From positions 1 through 27,307 of the forward strand of contig PWOD01000064.1 of NCBI GenBank assembly GCA_003557545.1: a stretch of 27,307 nt of DNA, given 5' to 3'. Positions 1,202 through 26,415 of the stretch are shown one piece after another. A program made the translations under genes and the position numbers. Source of the DNA: a bacterium (GTDB lineage Bacteria > T1Sed10-126). Each line of letters opens with the position of its first letter. The stretch's first letter is position 1. Under the pieces are notes generated by a model. That model had not been told where the DNA came from and did not search any database. It was given only the letters and a program-made list of their open reading frames with translations.

Positions 1202-2097
1202 TGCCAGAGTTACCGGAACTGCCAGATTTTTATCAGGAGCAATATGCTCGAGTCAACCGGGCGATTGATCAGTGGCTACCCCAGCCGGGTAAAGATCCTG
1301 AAAAGTTAGTTGAAGGAATGCGTTATGCAGTGCTTAACGGCGGAAAACGTCTGCGCGGAGTTTTAGTGCTTGAAGCAGGGAAAATTAGTGGTGCAAAACC
1401 GGCGGTGGTTGAGGGGATAGCGGCGGCGGTTGAGCTGATACATGCTTATTCCCTGGTGCATGATGATCTGCCGGCAATGGATGATGATGATTATCGCCGG
1501 GGTCAGCCGTCGGTACATAAAAAATATAATGAAGGGCTGGCTATACTGGTGGGTGATGCTCTGTTAACAGAAGCTTTCGGACTGTTGACCCGGCTGTTTG
1601 TTAAACAGCGGGTAAGCGGGGGTTTGGAAATTTTATCCGAGCTAACTGAGGCGATCGGTTATGCAGGTTTGATTGGCGGTCAGGTTTTAGATCTGGACGG
1701 CCCTATCTCCGGCGATGGATTGGAGGAACTCGATCAGATTCACCGCTGGAAGACCGGTGCGCTGATAACTGTCAGCTTAACTGCGGGGGCCCGCGCCGGT
1801 CAGGTTTCCGATCGGTTGTTGCAAGTTCTGACAAAGTTTGGTCAGTCGATCGGACTGGCTTTTCAAATCAAAGATGACCTGCTCGATGTTACAGCAGATT
1901 TTGCTACTCTGGGCAAGCAGATCGGAGCTGACGAGCGTGAAGACAAGCTGACATACCCACGTTTACTGGGAATAGAAAAATCACAGGTACGGGCCGAAAA
2001 ATTGGTCGAGACAGCAGTTGAGTTGCTAGAGGAAACAACTGCTGGTGGAGAGCGGCTGGCTGCTCTTGCCCGGTTTATTATTGAACGGGACCGCTAG
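1201..2097 (+). CDS. ispA: Polyprenyl synthetase (farnesyl/geranylgeranyl diphosphate synthase)
   Basis: Condenses IPP with DMAPP or GPP to make short-chain prenyl diphosphates, the precursors of undecaprenyl carriers and quinones. The 298 residues carry the first aspartate-rich motif DDLPAMD at 88-94, the upstream LNGGKRLR (46-52 region) that binds the diphosphate, and the second aspartate-rich motif KDDLLD at 224-229. Two residues lie between the paired Asp and the third Asp beyond the usual bacterial FPPS pattern (DDxxxxD), which fits IspA-type FPP synthases. The start overlaps the xseB stop. The xseA-xseB-ispA-dxs order is common in Firmicutes and many other bacteria. Exact product chain length cannot be read from the sequence. 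Confidence 0.94.
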   Translation: MPELPELPDFYQEQYARVNRAIDQWLPQPGKDPEKLVEGMRYAVLNGGKRLRGVLVLEAGKISGAKPAVVEGIAAAVELIHAYSLVHDDLPAMDDDDYRRGQPSVHKKYNEGLAILVGDALLTEAFGLLTRLFVKQRVSGGLEILSELTEAIGYAGLIGGQVLDLDGPISGDGLEELDQIHRWKTGALITVSLTAGARAGQVSDRLLQVLTKFGQSIGLAFQIKDDLLDVTADFATLGKQIGADEREDKLTYPRLLGIEKSQVRAEKLVETAVELLEETTAGGERLAALARFIIERDR

Positions 2098-10908: not shown

Positions 10909-12051
10909 ATGCGACTGCTTGATAGAGAGTTTACTAGAATTTTTATTTGGCCCTGTTTATTTAGCCTCGTGATCTGTGTATTTCTGTTTTTAATTGCTGA
11001 TTTTTTTGGTTTGCTGGATGAGTTGATTGGTTACCAGCCGGCGGTTCAAACAGTTATTCTGTATCTTTATTATAGATTTATCTACGCCGTTTTTTTTATG
11101 CTGCCGTTAGTTGTTATGCTGGGCTCTTTTTGGGGGTTAAACAGCTGGCGCCAGTCTAATCAGTGGACAGCTGTATTAAACAGTGGCAGTTCACCTGCTT
11201 CTCTGCTTAGAGTCCCGCTGGTAACGATTTGTTTATTAACTGTTGCTGCCATTATTTTTAATATATTGTTCATTCCATCGATAATCGACCGCTATAAGGT
11301 CCTGGAAGATTATCAGATACCGGGAGAAACACCGCCGGTTGAGAGCTTTCAGAACCTTCGTTTTCGGATGTTGGACGGTAGTACTGTAAAGATAGGCAAA
11401 CTGTTGCCAGAGGCCGGTATTGCTGAGGATATCGTTGTGATGAGACATGAGGAGGACCTGCTGGCTGAACGGATTGATGCCGAGGAGGCACAGTTTAATC
11501 CGGATAAAGGTTGGCAGGTAAAATATCCTGAAGTAAGAGATTTTGAGTCCGGTCGGCTGGCGGAAATAACCCGACCAACGGAGATTTTTCTGGCTCTGGA
11601 ACCACCGGGTGTTCTAAAGAAGATTATGCAGGCCAACCCACGTCTTGGTGGCCGTCGTCCGGAAGAGTTTACAGTCGAAGAGTTAAGGACAGCCATCAGA
11701 TTTCGCCAGCGACGGGGGATGAATACTACAGCAGAACAGTTGTTTTACCATTGGAAGGTAAGTTATCCGTTGAGTATTATAGTGCTTGCTATAATCGCCA
11801 TATATCTGGCGACCGGAACCCGAATGAGTCGCCCGGCCGGCATAGGTCTGCTGCTGCTTCTGGCACTGCTTTACTGGGCAATTTTTCATATGGTCCTGGC
11901 CTATGCCAAAACCGATTACTTCAGTTTGTTCAGTCCCTACCTGCCAGAGTATAGTCCGGTTTATTTTACCCCGGGATTATTTTTGTTTCTTGGTGTATAT
12001 TACTGGTCGAACAGATTTCAAGCTTTGAGAAGTCGCTGCCCTTCGAGCTAA
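10909..12051 (+). CDS. lptG: LptF/LptG-family permease, LptG-like
   Basis: Inner-membrane subunit of the LptB2FG ABC transporter that extracts LPS from the inner membrane and feeds it to the periplasmic bridge. The 380 residues follow the family plan: start MRLLDREFTRIF, three membrane helices in the first about 125 residues, a periplasmic beta-jellyroll domain (about 130-265; PPVESFQNLRFRMLDG), then a linker and three C-terminal helices from about 285. The ADFFGLLDELIGY region resembles LptG more than LptF, but the assignment between the two is by eye. GGGAG at 10896-10900 is 8 nt before the ATG. It lies downstream of the HD-GYP gene and about 13 kb from the lptF-like partner. It converges on the next gene with an 8-bp gap. 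Confidence 0.85.
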   Translation: MRLLDREFTRIFIWPCLFSLVICVFLFLIADFFGLLDELIGYQPAVQTVILYLYYRFIYAVFFMLPLVVMLGSFWGLNSWRQSNQWTAVLNSGSSPASLLRVPLVTICLLTVAAIIFNILFIPSIIDRYKVLEDYQIPGETPPVESFQNLRFRMLDGSTVKIGKLLPEAGIAEDIVVMRHEEDLLAERIDAEEAQFNPDKGWQVKYPEVRDFESGRLAEITRPTEIFLALEPPGVLKKIMQANPRLGGRRPEEFTVEELRTAIRFRQRRGMNTTAEQLFYHWKVSYPLSIIVLAIIAIYLATGTRMSRPAGIGLLLLLALLYWAIFHMVLAYAKTDYFSLFSPYLPEYSPVYFTPGLFLFLGVYYWSNRFQALRSRCPSS

Positions 12052-18977: not shown

Positions 18978-20091
18978 CTGAAAACACCACCAGGTTATCT
19001 CGATGTATTATTTCATCATAATAATGGGTTCCAAGAATAGCAGAAATCTCACTGGATTGACATCCTTTTAACTGTTGGATCTCCTGCAGGCTGTAGTTGG
19101 TCATACCACGGGCAAATTCGCGGTTGTTATGGTCGACAATCTTAACCACATCACCCCGTTCAAACAGTCCTTCAGCTCGTTTGATTCCTGAAGGAAGAAG
19201 GCTTTTACCCTGTTTTTTCAGAGCTTCCGCCGCCCCCTGATCGACCTGAATCGTACCTTTGGGAAGTAGATGGTAACCGATCCAGCGTTTTCGACCCCTG
19301 ATTAGATTTTCTTCAGTGGCCGGCGGGAAAAATGTCCCGACCTGATCACCCTGAATTATTTTGTTCAGGATATTTTTTTCATGGCCGGAGGCTATCAGCA
19401 TGGGAATTCCTGAGCTGGTGGCGGTTTCAGCCGCCTTGATTTTGGTCAGCATACCACCAACTGTAGTGCCACGCGGGTCAGCCGGCCCGGCCATTTTTCT
19501 AATATCGCCTGTAATTCTGGGGACCTCAGTTAGCGGTTGTGAGTCTTCCGTCGGCGGTCCTGGATAGAGTCCCTGCACATCGCTCAAAATAATCAACAGA
19601 TCGGCATCTGCAAGGGTGGTCACTAAGACTGACAGGGTGTCGTTATCACCAAATTGAATCTCCTCGGTTGCTACTGTGTCATTTTCATTAACAATTGGGA
19701 TGGTTCCCATCTCCAGCAGTGTGTTGAGGGTATTGGAGGCGTTAAGGTAGGATTCCCGGTCGCCGATCCCGGTCTGGGTCAGCAGCACCTGAGCAGTTAA
19801 TATCTGATATTTTTCAAACAGTTTGCTGTAAAAATTCATCAGAAGTGGTTGACCGATCGCTGCTGTGGCCTGCTTCTGTGGTAAGGTGACCGGCGGGGAG
19901 ATGTTCTGGCGACAGGACAGACCAAAATATATGGCCCCTGAGCTGACCACCACGATCTCTTTATTTAGCTGTCTGAGCTGATTGATCTGGTGGACAATCC
20001 CTTCCAGCAAAACTGGATTATCACGGTTTAACAGGCTGGAACCGATTTTGACGACAATTCGTTTGCAGCTCTTCAGATCTGTTCTTTTCAT
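18967..20091 (-). CDS. proB: Glutamate 5-kinase with PUA domain
   Basis: Phosphorylates glutamate in the first step of proline synthesis; the family is usually feedback-inhibited by proline. The amino-acid kinase domain (1 to about 260) begins RIVVKIGSSLL and contains the substrate region VNENDTVATEEIQFGDND and the ILSDVQGLYPGPP segment. A PUA domain occupies about 280-360 (GAAEALKKQGKSLLPSGI, FERGDVVKIVD), as in long-form ProB proteins. The ATG overlaps the obgE TGA (ATGA). Placement of proBA between obgE and nadD is a known Firmicute arrangement. Confidence 0.97.
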   Translation of the reverse strand: MKRTDLKSCKRIVVKIGSSLLNRDNPVLLEGIVHQINQLRQLNKEIVVVSSGAIYFGLSCRQNISPPVTLPQKQATAAIGQPLLMNFYSKLFEKYQILTAQVLLTQTGIGDRESYLNASNTLNTLLEMGTIPIVNENDTVATEEIQFGDNDTLSVLVTTLADADLLIILSDVQGLYPGPPTEDSQPLTEVPRITGDIRKMAGPADPRGTTVGGMLTKIKAAETATSSGIPMLIASGHEKNILNKIIQGDQVGTFFPPATEENLIRGRKRWIGYHLLPKGTIQVDQGAAEALKKQGKSLLPSGIKRAEGLFERGDVVKIVDHNNREFARGMTNYSLQEIQQLKGCQSSEISAILGTHYYDEIIHRDNLVVFSDDC

Positions 20092-21359
20092 CCTGTATAT
20101 TCAAACTCCTTATCGTCAATCTGTACTGTATCTCCCGGCCGGCACCCGGCCTTCTCTAATTTCTTATGAAGACCGATTTCCAACAGCTGCTGTCTAACAT
20201 AGCTTAAGGCGTCACGGTTATTGAGGTCAAACCGATTGACCAGCTCTTTTACCCTGTCGCCCCGGAGAATAAATCTATCATCCTGTTTGATAACCTCCAG
20301 CGGAGTTTCAGCGGGGAGTCTGACAATCCGAATTTGATCATCCTCCGGCTGAGGTTCCTGACTGTCAGAACTTCTATTATAAATTTCCCAGAGAGATTCA
20401 ACCAGAGTTTTTAAATTTTCACCGGTTTGGGCAGAGATTCCGATCACTGGTCCGGGGGCCGGTGAAATATCCTCAGCAAAGATGTCGACCTCCTGGGGTT
20501 CGACAAGATCCAGCTTATTACAGACGATAATGGTCGGTTTTTTGAGTAATTCGGGGTTGTATTTTTTTAATTCATGCCGGATCGCTTTAAAATCATCGAC
20601 CGGTGTGGGTGCTGATATATCAACCAGCTGGACAAGAATAGTTGTTCTGGCAATATGTCGTAAGAATTTAATCCCCAGTCCGGCCCCGGCGTGGGCGTTA
20701 TTGACCAGGCCCGGGATATCGCAGATAGTCATCCGTTCGAAGCCCTTTTCAAGCACTCCCAGGTTAGGATTGATCGTAGTGAAGGGATAGCTGGCGATCT
20801 CTGGATGAGCGCCGGTAAGGCTGTCGAGGAGAGTTGATTTCCCGCTGTTGGGATAGCCAATCAGTCCGATATCGGCGACCAGCTTAAGTTCTAATCTGAT
20901 TTTTTTATGTTCACCCGCCGCGCCCAGTTCATGGAAATGGGGAGCCTGCCTTCGACTTGTGGTGAAACAGCGATTCCCCCGACCACCGTCACCGCCGCGA
21001 GCGATTAAGAGCTGATCTCCCGCTTCCAGCAGTTCACCAAGTAATTTATTGGAGGAGGCCTCATAGATGATTGTGCCAGGCGGGACTTTGAGGACAAGAT
21101 CATCCCCACTCTGTCCCTTTTTACGATCCGGCCCCCCCCGTGTTCCATCCTCAGCTTTAAGGAGTTTACGGTGATTAAAATCGGACAGGGTATTTTTTCT
21201 TGAGCTGGCCTTAAAAAACAGGCTGCCACCATCGCCTCCGTCACCGCCGGAGGGTCCACCCCGGGCGTTATAGGGCTGCCGTTCAAAGGCGGTACATCCG
21301 TCGCCTCCGGAACCACCCTGAACGATAACTTCAACTTCATCAACAAAAGGTCGGGCCAT
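20088..21359 (-). CDS. obgE: Obg-family GTPase (50S assembly/stress)
   Basis: Essential GTPase that binds the 50S subunit and links ribosome assembly with stress and growth control. Three domains are visible: a glycine-rich Obg fold (1-160), a G domain with P-loop GYPNSGKS (168-175), switch region SYPFTTINPNLG (190-201), DIPG (214-217) and NKLD (281-284), and a C-terminal OCT-type region of about 80 residues after 340. Length (423) fits the Firmicute form with OCT domain. The gene follows rpmA by 57 bp and overlaps proB. Confidence 0.97.
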   Translation of the reverse strand: MARPFVDEVEVIVQGGSGGDGCTAFERQPYNARGGPSGGDGGDGGSLFFKASSRKNTLSDFNHRKLLKAEDGTRGGPDRKKGQSGDDLVLKVPPGTIIYEASSNKLLGELLEAGDQLLIARGGDGGRGNRCFTTSRRQAPHFHELGAAGEHKKIRLELKLVADIGLIGYPNSGKSTLLDSLTGAHPEIASYPFTTINPNLGVLEKGFERMTICDIPGLVNNAHAGAGLGIKFLRHIARTTILVQLVDISAPTPVDDFKAIRHELKKYNPELLKKPTIIVCNKLDLVEPQEVDIFAEDISPAPGPVIGISAQTGENLKTLVESLWEIYNRSSDSQEPQPEDDQIRIVRLPAETPLEVIKQDDRFILRGDRVKELVNRFDLNNRDALSYVRQQLLEIGLHKKLEKAGCRPGDTVQIDDKEFEYTG

Positions 21360-21416: not shown

Positions 21417-21716
21417 TCAGGCGGTAGCGGCCGTTTTGCTGTTTTCCAGCAGTTCGATCTGCTCTGGAGTTAAAACGGTAACTATTTTTTTATTTTTACC
21501 GCGCCGGCTGAAGAAAAGATAGCCGTCTATCTTGGCAAAAAGAGTATCGTCACTGCCCCGGCCTACATTCATGCCCGGGTGATACTTGGTACCACGCTGG
21601 CGGACAATAATGTTGCCGGCCCGGACCTTCTCACTGTCAAATTTTTTCAGCCCAAGCCGCTTAGATTGACTATCTCTTCCATTTCTTGTCGATCCCTGAC
21701 TTGCTTTTGTGGCCAT
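21417..21716 (-). CDS. rpmA: 50S ribosomal protein bL27, without N-terminal propeptide
   Basis: Ribosomal protein whose N-terminus reaches the peptidyl transferase centre. The 99 residues begin [16 protein letters not shown], equivalent to the mature form of bL27; the leader ending in QFFA that most Firmicutes carry and Prp removes is absent. AAGGAGG is 7 nt before ATG 21716, which fixes the start, and the in-frame codons upstream encode nothing like the leader. [24 protein letters not shown] and [12 protein letters not shown] are typical. A promoter candidate lies in the gap upstream. Confidence 0.96.
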
Positions 21717-21793
21717 TTTAATTCCTCCTTGTAATCTAAATAATCTCTAAGTTGATCGTTCTGACCGATTCAGTATCGACTGACCGGACAAAT

Positions 21794-21822
21794 ATTATAA
21801 ATCAGGATAAGGTTATTTTCCA
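21794..21822 (-). promoter_or_regulatory. Probable promoter upstream of rpmA
   Basis: On the minus strand TGGAAA (21822-21817, 4/6) and a perfect TATAAT (21799-21794) are 17 bp apart, in the 118-bp gap between prp and rpmA. It would add transcription of rpmA-obgE and genes below. The leader also carries two direct copies of CTGACCG (21761-21767 and 21780-21786, plus-strand reading) of unknown meaning. Confidence 0.5.
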
Positions 21823-21834
21823 GAACTTTCGATA

Positions 21835-22188
21835 TTAACTGCTGTTAATCTGCTTCGGCGAACTTAATCTGCAGTTTTTTGGGTAGCCAGCTGCGATCTT
21901 AGCAAGCAACCGGGCGACAGAGCTGAGAATTAAATCCAACAGCTGAGCTTCTTCGGCAGTGATTTTCTCCCGAACTACCTGCCATTCCCACAGGGGAACC
22001 GCCGGTTGTTTAAGCTGTTTTATAGCTCCGGATGAAAAATTAGCGGTTAAATCGACAAGCAATTCGAAAACTGTTGATATGGCCGCACAGACAATATCTT
22101 GACCGCGGGGAGCCTGATCGGCATGCCCGCAGGCTTTGAAACCTGTTATCTCCCCCTGGTTGTTCTGGTGGATGGTTACCTCAATCAT
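21835..22188 (-). CDS. prp: Prp-type cysteine protease (YsxB family)
   Basis: Small cysteine protease encoded between rplU and rpmA; in Firmicutes that have been studied it removes the N-terminal extension of bL27. The 117 residues have the catalytic pair H22 in ACGHAD and C34 in DIVCAAIS, with the helical remainder typical of the family and a slightly long C-terminal tail (CRLSSPKQINSS). Its start is 8 bp downstream of the rplU stop with no evident ribosome site, so translation is probably coupled. Its expected substrate site is missing in the adjacent bL27 (see findings). Confidence 0.9.
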   Translation of the reverse strand: MIEVTIHQNNQGEITGFKACGHADQAPRGQDIVCAAISTVFELLVDLTANFSSGAIKQLKQPAVPLWEWQVVREKITAEEAQLLDLILSSVARLLAKIAAGYPKNCRLSSPKQINSS

Positions 22189-22196
22189 GCGTTTTA

Positions 22197-22511
22197 TCAG
22201 GCAAGATCTATGGATTCCACCCTGAGCCTTGTCAAATCGTCTCTGTGCCCGAGTTTGCGCCGTCTGCCGTGCCGTTTTTTAAAGTTATAGACGGTGATTT
22301 TATCGCCTCGAAAATGCTCGACGATCGAAACCTTAACACTGGCACCATCAACCTGTGGGGTGCCGATCTTCAGGTCAGAATCATCTTTTACCATCAATAC
22401 TTCAGTCAACTCTAGCTCTTCACCTACATCCCCTTCATGTCGGAATACGGTGAATTCGGTATCCGGTTCAACCCGGTACTGGTGACTGCCAACTGCTACA
22501 ATAGCGTACAT
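22197..22511 (-). CDS. rplU: 50S ribosomal protein bL21
   Basis: Ribosomal protein bL21, 104 residues, beginning MYAIVAVGSHQYRVE with the conserved KIGTPQVDGASV segment and the basic FKKRHGRRRKLGHR motif near the C-terminus that binds rRNA. AGAGGAGGT sits 6 nt before ATG 22511. It is the first gene of the 14-gene minus-strand run and has a structured leader upstream. Confidence 0.97.
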   Translation of the reverse strand: MYAIVAVGSHQYRVEPDTEFTVFRHEGDVGEELELTEVLMVKDDSDLKIGTPQVDGASVKVSIVEHFRGDKITVYNFKKRHGRRRKLGHRDDLTRLRVESIDLA

Positions 22512-23021: not shown

Positions 23022-25133
23022 ATGCGTTCGGCAATTATTTTGGGCTTTATCGGGACGGCAATTAGCTGTTTATTGATAGTTTTGCCGGTTGGCGAATTAC
23101 TGGCCGTGGAACCGATAGTTATAAAAAATGCAAATTCTATAAGTTTTGATCTGGCCGGTGATCTGGTAGCAGCCGGTGAAGTGGTTATAAGCTGGAAAGA
23201 TTACCAGTTGACGGCGCCGTTAATCATTTACTGGCAGGAGGGCGATTTAATCTATGCCCAGCGGGGGGCGGTCCTGACTCGTGGGGAGGAGAAAATAAGC
23301 AGTCAGGAGATCGGAATATATCAGCAGACGGGAGAGATCTTTGCATCTGATATAAGTGGTGCTCTTGAACCATGGGAGACTACAGCCCGTCGGATTGAGG
23401 GTGATCTGGATGGACGGTTAACCATGCACCGGGCAAGACTGACCACCTGCGATTCGGAAAATCCTCATTATTATTTTACCGGCAGCCGGTTTTATTATTA
23501 TCCGGGTGATAGGTTGACTGGATATAATGTAACCATGTGGGTTGGAGCAGTTCCTGTATTTTATCTGCCCTGGATAGGGGTTGATCTTGGTGATCGCTTG
23601 AGACGCTGGCAGCTGCGGCCGGGATATAGTTCACGGGATGGTTTAAAGCTGGAAGCAAACTATCGATATCTGTTGCCCCTGGACGGGAAACCTTTTGCCA
23701 GTACGATCTATTCTGAGTGGAGTGAATATGTCAGACCGGGATTTGGACTTGATTTTGATCTAATGGATGACCAGCAGCAGGCTTATCTATCTTATTTTCA
23801 ATCAAGTCGCCGACCATTAGTTGAGGATGCTGAAGGGAAGATAGTCAGGGCTGATCAGCGTGAGGATGTGTGGAAATTAGGGGCTGAAATAAAATATCAT
23901 TTTTTGGATGAGCGCTGGCGATTTAAAACAGCTGCTAACTGGACAAATTATCAGCGTTTCAATCGTGATTTTAGCCGGCAGCTGGCTCCCCGCGCTGAAT
24001 CCGACCGCTGGGTTAAAGGTGGATTGTTTTACCGGGGGGAAAGATCGCTTCTGCGGCTGGAAGCGCGGGAAGATGAGAGGGTGGTGCCGGGGGGCGGGTT
24101 TGCTGATTTCGAACGGTATAATGCAGTTATGCCCGGACTTTCATATCAGATTTTTCCTGTTCTGACAGAATTTTATGGCTGGTTCTTTTATTCTGATTTG
24201 ACTTTCGAACTTGATCGGACTTATACCGAAGAGACTGAACGCTATTTATGGAGCGGTAGAACAGAGGCTACAGTTTCAAAAAATATTATACAGAATCGGT
24301 TTTTTAGTCAGTCGTTGCGGTTGGCTTATGGTTTTAATTATAATGAAGTTCCCGGGCCGGATGGTTTTGAAATGCGCGATCATGGTGATGTTGGTTTTGA
24401 GCTTACCAATCGCGTACGTTTGCCTTTGCGGTCAACTGTGGAGCTTGATTATAGTCTTCAGCGAAGAACGTCTCGAAAGTCGGAAGCGGTTGTGGGAGAG
24501 GTGCTGGGGGTTGCACAGCAGTCGGAAGAGAATGCGTTAGATCGACATCGGCTGGATGCTGCATTAACTTTGCGCAGGAACAGTTCTTATTTTGAATTAT
24601 CAGGCGGATATGATCTACGAAATCCGGTCGATCAACAGCTTGATTCTGACAGCCGGCTCTTGCCGGTGATAGTTCATGCCAATCTACGTCCAGGAGAAAA
24701 TTGGGATTGGCATCAGTACCTTCGTTATGATCCGCGCGATGGTGATATCTGGCAGGCCAATACAAAATGGCGGTTTGACCATGGAGACCGGCTTGAGCTC
24801 TCCCTGGGCTGGAATTATAACCGGGATCAAGCGGGTGAGCACAGGTCATTTTTAGAGCATGGTTTTGATTGGACCATTGTCCCGAAAAATTTGCGTCTGC
24901 GTGGTCAGGTTTCATATGATCTGGAGGAATCAGATTTTGATGAGATGAGATTTTTGCTGGACCGGAATCTGCATTGTTGGGATATGCAGCTGATGTACAG
25001 AGAACTATCAGATGCAGATCGGCAGATCTGGATGATGTTAACCCTGTCTGATTATCCTGACAGAGGTCTGGGAATGGAACGTGATATTGAGACTGATGAG
25101 GTGGATCTTACCGGTTCGATTCCGCGGGAATAG
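23022..25133 (+). CDS. lptD: LptD/OstA-like LPS-assembly outer-membrane protein
   Basis: Outer-membrane beta-barrel that, in Proteobacteria, inserts LPS into the outer leaflet with LptE. The 703 residues comprise a signal peptide (about 1-28), an OstA/LptA-like N-terminal domain (about 30-115, GDLVAAGEVVISW, QGDLIY-like strands), the conserved TTCDSENPHYYF (141-152) and AVPVFYLPW (176-184), and then alternating amphipathic strands with many aromatic and charged residues to about 690, typical of the barrel. Mature-chain cysteines are only C143 and C652 (see findings). GGAAG at about 23004 is the nearest ribosome site and is weak. The lptF-like gene follows. Presence of this gene marks a diderm. 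Confidence 0.9.
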   Translation: MRSAIILGFIGTAISCLLIVLPVGELLAVEPIVIKNANSISFDLAGDLVAAGEVVISWKDYQLTAPLIIYWQEGDLIYAQRGAVLTRGEEKISSQEIGIYQQTGEIFASDISGALEPWETTARRIEGDLDGRLTMHRARLTTCDSENPHYYFTGSRFYYYPGDRLTGYNVTMWVGAVPVFYLPWIGVDLGDRLRRWQLRPGYSSRDGLKLEANYRYLLPLDGKPFASTIYSEWSEYVRPGFGLDFDLMDDQQQAYLSYFQSSRRPLVEDAEGKIVRADQREDVWKLGAEIKYHFLDERWRFKTAANWTNYQRFNRDFSRQLAPRAESDRWVKGGLFYRGERSLLRLEAREDERVVPGGGFADFERYNAVMPGLSYQIFPVLTEFYGWFFYSDLTFELDRTYTEETERYLWSGRTEATVSKNIIQNRFFSQSLRLAYGFNYNEVPGPDGFEMRDHGDVGFELTNRVRLPLRSTVELDYSLQRRTSRKSEAVVGEVLGVAQQSEENALDRHRLDAALTLRRNSSYFELSGGYDLRNPVDQQLDSDSRLLPVIVHANLRPGENWDWHQYLRYDPRDGDIWQANTKWRFDHGDRLELSLGWNYNRDQAGEHRSFLEHGFDWTIVPKNLRLRGQVSYDLEESDFDEMRFLLDRNLHCWDMQLMYRELSDADRQIWMMLTLSDYPDRGLGMERDIETDEVDLTGSIPRE

Positions 25134-25284
25134 AGACAGCAGTAGTTGTGATTTAGATCGCGATGGTTGCAGTTTGTTATATTTTGGAATATTTTGTTAA
25201 TTAAGAGAGTGGGATTGTTTTTTCAAGCTGGTCAAAACAGATCACTGGTGGATATTTTTTTAAACTGGATGGTTGTTGATAGGT

Positions 25285-26415
25285 ATGAAATTTAAAACTC
25301 GTTATATTTTACATGAACTTACTGTACCTTTTTTGTTGGGCCTTGCGCTGTTCACCGGTGTGTTTTTAATGCATGGTTTATATGATCTGACAGAATCTGT
25401 TATTAGTCATGGGTTTTCCTTTCCGAGGATGTTTTTGCTGGTACTGTCTGGTTTGCCTGAAACATTTTTTTTAACTGCTCCGATGGCAGCTATACTTGGA
25501 GTTTTGATGGGTTATGGAAGGTTAGCTGCGGATAATGAGCTGGTTGCTTTTCGGGTTGCGGGATTTTCCCTGATTTCGTTGATAATTCCAGCCCTGGTGG
25601 CCTCCTTGCTCCTTTCAGGGGGATTGCTGGCTCTCAGGCAGTATGGGCAACCGGCACTGGGCCGGGCCCGGGTTAATCTGCTTGAGCAGATGGCGATGCC
25701 GGCACCAGAGAGATTAATGGCAGCCGAAAGTTATCTCGAGCTTGGTCCCTATACGATTTACGCTGCAAGCGTTGAAGGTAATCAGATGGGTGATGTTTAC
25801 CTGGAAGATAGATCCGGGCCATATCCGATTGATATTTATGCTCGTCAGGCCTCATGGATAAGATATTCTCCCGAACTTTATCTGCTCCGGCTGGAAGATG
25901 GCAGCATGCATCAAAATCCTGATGAGGCCGATTACCGTGTGTTGAGTTTCCAGCGGCAGGATGTTCAGATTGATCTAACAGAGGTGGTCGGCCGTTCAAT
26001 ATCCGGGGGTGAGGAGACCACTTCGATTGTCGATCTATACCGCCGCAAAGAGAGTTCGTACAAGCGTTATCTGGAGGGAAAAAAACAGCTGGCCGAGGCG
26101 GAAAAAATTGTTAGATTGAGGGAGAATTATCGGGAAGATTTATTGGAGTTTCACCGGGCACTGGCCCTTCCGCTGGCCCCGTTTTTTCTGGTGCTTATTG
26201 CTGCACCACTGGGGATGTTAGCCCGACAGAGTGGGAAGGCAATCGGGTTCATTTTAAGTCTGCTGTTAATTTTCTTGTATTATCTGTTTTCTATTCTAAT
26301 CGAACCGTTAGCCATCCAGGGATTGGTTCCTGCAGGGTTAGCCCTCTGGGTGCCCAATATTTTATTTGGGCTGTTGGGTATCGTGTTGATCTACCGGTTA
26401 CAGGAACGGGGCTGA
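25285..26415 (+). CDS. lptF: LptF/LptG-family permease, LptF-like
   Basis: Second transmembrane partner of the LptB2FG exporter. From ATG 25285 the 376 residues begin KFKTRYILHELTVPFLLGL, match the LptF N-terminus and contain the TAPMAAILGVLMGYGRLAADNEL and FRVAGFSL segments typical of LptF, then a periplasmic beta domain (about 130-255) and three C-terminal helices (from about 290). The open frame reaches TTG 25273, but the four extra residues do not fit the family. No strong ribosome site is visible. The 151-bp gap after lptD has no terminator that I can see. Assignment as LptF rather than LptG is by eye. Confidence 0.85.
   Translation: MKFKTRYILHELTVPFLLGLALFTGVFLMHGLYDLTESVISHGFSFPRMFLLVLSGLPETFFLTAPMAAILGVLMGYGRLAADNELVAFRVAGFSLISLIIPALVASLLLSGGLLALRQYGQPALGRARVNLLEQMAMPAPERLMAAESYLELGPYTIYAASVEGNQMGDVYLEDRSGPYPIDIYARQASWIRYSPELYLLRLEDGSMHQNPDEADYRVLSFQRQDVQIDLTEVVGRSISGGEETTSIVDLYRRKESSYKRYLEGKKQLAEAEKIVRLRENYREDLLEFHRALALPLAPFFLVLIAAPLGMLARQSGKAIGFILSLLLIFLYYLFSILIEPLAIQGLVPAGLALWVPNILFGLLGIVLIYRLQERG

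Follow-up and report, generated by a model that had tools for sequence, protein, structure and literature searches.

The window, by which we mean the whole 27,307-nt stretch of DNA that was analysed, contains on its minus strand the genes rplU, prp, rpmA and obg in this order, together with the following features:

22197–22511, minus strand: rplU, bL21, upstream gene of the operon
21835–22188, minus strand: prp, ribosomal-processing cysteine protease (Pfam Peptidase_Prp), 117 aa, predicted pI 6.7
22123–22125, minus strand: codon of the catalytic H22, invariant in the aligned Prps
22096–22098, minus strand: codon of D31 (from the alignment), a loop residue needed in S. aureus Prp (PMC9405229 section 3.3.1)
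22087–22089, minus strand: codon of the catalytic C34, invariant in the aligned Prps
21747–21749, minus strand: in-frame TAG closing the reading frame, 11th codon upstream of the rpmA start
21724–21730, minus strand: AAGGAGG ribosome-binding site of rpmA, read directly, 7 nt from the ATG
21417–21716, minus strand: rpmA, bL27 without leader (Pfam Ribosomal_L27, E 1.7e-34; TIGR00062, 118.9 bits)
20088–21359, minus strand: obg, downstream gene of the operon

As the first-pass annotation had stated, bL27 is encoded directly as its mature form: reading the sequence confirmed the AAGGAGG 7 nt before the ATG, and the LQ(F/L)F'A leader (the prime marks the cut) by which we define a long bL27 is missing. 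A leader hidden 5' of rpmA was ruled out, as neither an ATG, GTG or TTG codon nor Q-F-F-A was seen in the ten codons that follow the TAG; since the frame is closed by this stop and contains no start codon, a QFFA-like leader on bL27 cannot be made. The in-frame upstream start that the annotation had envisaged as a counter-finding was thus looked for and not found. Its other reservation, an isolated assembly error, did not hold up either: the other sampled genus of the family (G001, L007) has the identical rplU-prp-rpmA order with a short bL27, which rules out an assembly artefact as the source of this arrangement. Short bL27 together with prp was seen again in at least ten other families.

The product of prp scored above the cut-off of Pfam Peptidase_Prp (PF04327; 65.9 versus 27 bits, E 3.9e-18) and matched the NCBIfam Prp models at scores below their own cut-offs. 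The catalytic pair (H22, C34) described at first pass was confirmed, D31 is present as well, and the gene is located between rplU and rpmA; all three residues align with those of S. aureus Prp (4PEO/7KLD), and H22 and C34 were invariant across 58 aligned Prps. An AlphaFold2 model (mean pLDDT 89.7) showed the topology of the family, and its best Foldseek matches were 7KLD and 7JVS, structures of S. aureus Prp with bound substrate (7kld_B, E 3.7e-8, TM 0.75–0.82). The predicted pI of 6.7 agrees with the neutral pI that PMC9405229 gives for Prps not acting on L27. Residues and modelled fold point to a working cysteine protease of the Prp family, its activity being predicted.

The host genome (G000; 2.15 Mb in 239 contigs, about 92% complete) contains one Prp. 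The window also holds a gene that matches LptD weakly and permeases of the LptF/LptG type (23022–25133, 25273–26415 and 10909–12051, the third of which we take to belong to this set by recognition only). These genes suggest that the bacterium has an outer membrane to which LPS is exported. Membership in the Halanaerobiales, assumed at first pass, was not supported: only G001, from another genus of the same family, was closer than 'same domain' in the sample, all other genomes sharing the domain alone. The nearest named L27 (62% identical) does come from a MAG labelled Halanaerobiales, the locus of which contains no prp. The G001 Prp is 28% identical to that of the host, keeps H22 and C34 and has N instead of D at position 31; synonymous sites between the two prp genes are saturated, the genomes being too far apart for dN/dS. 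D31 is essential in S. aureus Prp (PMC9405229), and among the aligned sequences it was missing only in short-L27 lineages (L007, L119, L120, L181 and L280, from G001, G304, G383, G133 and G270).

FlhB as candidate client of Prp in the host lineage

The flhB gene of the host genome, assigned by Pfam, is located on contig C151 as the last gene of a cluster whose preceding members we take, from recognition of their sequences, to be fliM, fliY, fliO, fliP, fliQ and fliR. The N-terminus of its product reads MENQLFSIDLKELDPLQLENFDLQFF'ASAEDEGRTEDPT, with the site FDLQFF'AS directly before the conserved FlhB core; the FlhB of G001 reads SLDLQFF'ASAEDEGRTEEPT, with LDLQFF'AS in the same place. No ATG, GTG or TTG was found upstream of LDLQFF'AS in G001 (L093, 1381–1500), reflecting either a sequence error or initiation at an unusual codon such as ATA or ATC. 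When the whole host assembly was scanned with a DNA pattern for sequences coding for [DN]-[ILVMF]-Q-[FL]-F-A, three matches were obtained, one in FlhB, one in the interior of DnaA and one in a chance frame of 14 aa. The latter two were rejected as Prp targets, and FlhB was the sole protein with an N-terminal canonical Prp site found in this 92%-complete assembly. The host combines four features of the Prp-FlhB phenotype of PMC9405229, namely a Prp, a short L27, FlhB and an N-terminal Prp-type site on the latter.

According to the mechanism that we propose, FlhB would be made with the N-terminal leader MENQLFSIDLKELDPLQLENFDLQFF, and Prp, using its C34/H22 dyad, would cut it between F26 and A27, leaving ASAEDEGRTEDPT; one cut (F'A) is predicted in the candidate cleavage peptide ENFDLQFFASAEDEG, and the predicted product would correspond to the FlhB N-terminus as it is encoded in Prp-less spirochaetes. 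We infer that this cut is made in vivo and that FlhB is defective when left uncut. The client of Prp in the host lineage would be FlhB and not bL27, and prp would remain between rplU and rpmA by inherited operon position, not because bL27 needs it. The suggestion of the first-pass annotation that Prp has another substrate in this lineage is strongly supported, and FlhB with FDLQFF'AS can be named as that probable substrate.

Prp next to a short bL27 is not new in kind. Hotinger et al. (2022) reported Prp without long L27 in all Spirochetes and in some Thermotogae and Tenericutes, and stated that the substrate in such bacteria 'has yet to be elucidated' (PMC9405229). FlhB was proposed as a Prp substrate in a 2015 thesis (reference 16 in PMC9405229) because its N-terminus resembles the L27 site, a likeness that PMC9405229 presents in a table compiled by hand for about a dozen species; for bacteria that have no long L27, among them those causing syphilis and Lyme disease, the substrate is stated as unknown, with FlhB as a proposal. 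In the literature searched, we found no experimental test of FlhB cleavage by Prp in any species, and relative to that literature the comparative evidence presented below is new. The window Prp shares with the S. aureus and B. subtilis enzymes (MEROPS C108, ysxB, PF04327) the fold, H22/D31/C34, a full-length G21–D31 loop and the place between rplU and rpmA; it differs in its neutral pI, in the leaderless bL27 next to it and in having FlhB as sole predicted client. The cleavage motif of the bL27 extension of Firmicutes, Fusobacteria and Synergistetes is found in the host on FlhB and is absent from the bL27 of the host family. With the Prps of Spirochaetes and Thermotoga the window Prp has in common an adjoining leaderless bL27 and an FlhB with an LQxF'A-like N-terminal site (PMC9405229), although the host belongs to a lineage of its own, for which relatives above the rank of family are missing from the sample, and its canonical FDLQFF'AS is closer to the L27 consensus than the sites of T. 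maritima or Borrelia (PMC9405229).

Prp, bL27 leaders and FlhB sites across genomes

Among the 80 named loci nearest to the window L27, 42 showed a long bL27 with an adjoining prp (including L063 and L076, which read SMQFFAHKK), 33 a short bL27 with no prp there, and one, a Spirochaetes MAG (L038), a short bL27 with prp; the remaining four were left unclassed owing to a contig edge or unusual sequence. Since a leaderless bL27 normally goes with the absence of prp among these loci, keeping the gene needs a reason. The assumption that Prp implies a bL27 leader stood in one direction only, and Prp with short L27 is also on record (PMC9405229).

A domain-wide sample of 386 genomes was searched with a profile built from diverse Prps, and Prp-like genes were found in 34 of them. 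Fifteen of these had a long bL27; sixteen encoded FlhB and combined a short bL27 with a prp placed between rplU and rpmA; two (G239 and G368) had a catalytically dead copy, a short bL27 and no FlhB; and one (G187) had a lipoprotein-like Prp elsewhere in the genome. The motif Q-x-F-[AG] just before the FlhB core was present in 18 of 24 flagellated genomes with Prp and in 0 of 104 without, the latter having been taken from an E-value-ranked list and not by random draw. Counted by family, which lessens the effect of kinship among genomes that are not independent and are partly incomplete, it occurred in 13/17 Prp-positive and 0/87 Prp-negative families (Fisher 2e-13). This result supports a client relation between Prp and FlhB.

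The strict site was found in 13 of the 16 short-L27 and in five of the eight flagellated long-L27 genomes with Prp, and the FlhB site or a variant of it was seen in every one of the 16 flagellated genomes in which prp adjoins the gene for a short bL27. Of the three short-L27 genomes off the strict pattern, two, from different genera of one family, showed LNWFG and one showed DPLQFAES. The active-site loops of the corresponding Prps are altered, suggesting that protease and site vary together. Two apparent exceptions were resolved. G270, listed as a Prp-negative genome with a site, proved to have a divergent prp when a better profile was used; G284, listed likewise, also lacks rplU, so the locus is absent from its assembly. 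A seeming counterexample, G187, with Prp and short L27 but no FlhB, has no prp between its rplU and rpmA, its Prp domain belonging to a lipoprotein-like protein. The latter (L281, 4640–5143, plus strand) is a 168-aa protein with a C-terminal Prp domain and a lipoprotein-like signal (LIHTLVYGC), encoded away from rplU-rpmA, and is apparently an exported Prp.

The phylum of G018 was taken as Spirochaetota because its FlhB N-termini match the Borrelia and T. pallidum rows of Table 3 in PMC9405229. Of its 296 genomes, 283 had FlhB and 235 had Prp, the latter occurring in 234 of the 283 FlhB-positive genomes. Twelve of the 13 genomes without FlhB belong to a flagella-less family (f307), and all twelve were without Prp; the thirteenth, 67% complete, had Prp. 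In the Treponema-like genus g377 (family f276), the sampled species with Prp have FlhB with DLQWF'AAEDEGRTE or a close variant, while four species without Prp according to the profile search (G614, G629, G666 and G669; L360–L363) encode FlhB from MAAEDEGRTE or MAADDEGRTE, with a purine-rich ribosome-binding site and an in-frame stop immediately upstream of the start. In these four species the encoded N-terminus of FlhB coincides exactly with that expected after cleavage by Prp, which we regard as the strongest evidence within the phylum. The Prp-less families f274, f293 and f297 (L345, L348, L349, L351–L355) have a long FlhB N-terminal stretch that ends in FAAEDE or LAAEDE and contains no Q, representing either a decayed site or the site of an unrecognised protease. 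Eight spirochaete genomes without Prp keep a canonical FlhB site; six are less than 90% complete, which leaves G470 (91%) and G635 (96%) unaccounted for. These eight genomes count against FlhB as the client, as do the three variant sites, the long Q-less FlhB N-termini of some Prp-less families and the N at position 31 of the G001 Prp.

The role of Prp and alternative readings

The protease and its FlhB site are intact in the host, bL27 has no leader, and Prp and the FlhB site were seen to co-occur and to be lost together across genomes. The best explanation of the whole is, with high probability, that Prp has been kept as a working protease that matures FlhB instead of bL27; judged from sequence comparison, the window prp is most likely not a relic.

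The first-pass annotation had alternatively considered that the leader was lost recently and that prp is on its way out. The poor conservation of Prp between the two genera and the lack of D31 in G001 would fit a decaying gene, but this reading is very unlikely because prp is intact in both genera: the frame and the catalytic dyad are preserved, the Prp fold is predicted with confidence, and the short bL27 is common to the whole family and to ten other Prp-bearing families. Real decay looks different elsewhere in the sample, where prp is usually lost, or its catalytic residues are, once both leaders are missing. A further cellular or phage substrate is conceivable in that the capsid and scaffold proteins of phage 80alpha carry Prp sites (PMC9405229 Table 1) and divergent sites would escape a pattern search, yet in the 92%-complete assembly FlhB alone was found to carry a canonical site at its N-terminus, and we consider such a substrate extremely unlikely as the reason for keeping prp.

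That Prp serves as a dedicated assembly chaperone of bL27, with no cleavage needed and catalysis incidental, is unlikely. Such a role has been discussed for Prp of S. aureus, a species in which L27 supplied in pre-cleaved form impairs growth (PMC9405229 section 3.3.2). It would account for G239 and G368, which have a short L27 and no FlhB and keep between rplU and rpmA a Prp-like gene without H22 and C34; in a comparison of these two genomes only, its dN/dS is about 0.1, a constraint equal to that on rplU and rpmA, and it appears to evolve under purifying selection. However, most short-bL27 lineages without flagella or an FlhB site drop prp and keep bL27, as illustrated by the named short-L27 loci, 33 of which lack prp while one has it, and by the flagella-less spirochaete family; the invariance of the dyad in all 58 aligned Prps also argues against incidental catalysis, and the FlhB site and its removal in Prp-less relatives would be left unexplained. 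A cleavage-independent chaperone function could coexist with cleavage of FlhB. The dead Prp-like gene (L278, about 1488–1815, plus strand; L279, minus strand; sequence QGDESAEGLAAAALVE) has apparently been retained, perhaps for a chaperone function towards bL27.

With FlhB maturation by Prp as the preferred reading, the comparative data sharpen the earlier proposal to a single predicted cut at a named bond, for which the Prp-less Treponema-like species, with an FlhB starting at that bond, provide a natural control. If it is true, a ribosomal protein and the flagellar export gate would be matured by the same small protease, and the presence of Prp would be predictable from the N-termini of bL27 and FlhB. 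More tentatively, and with the chances somewhat against it, FlhB maturation might be the older or more widespread task of Prp, the bL27 leader being a second client that Firmicutes, Fusobacteria and relatives recruited at a later stage; Prp would then persist only as long as one or both of the leaders are present, and on its loss FlhB would be re-encoded in pre-cleaved form. Mycoplasma pneumoniae, which has no flagella, is given with a short L27 in Table 2 of PMC9405229, yet its Prp is reported as essential (PMC7737663); its published L27 start may be mis-annotated.
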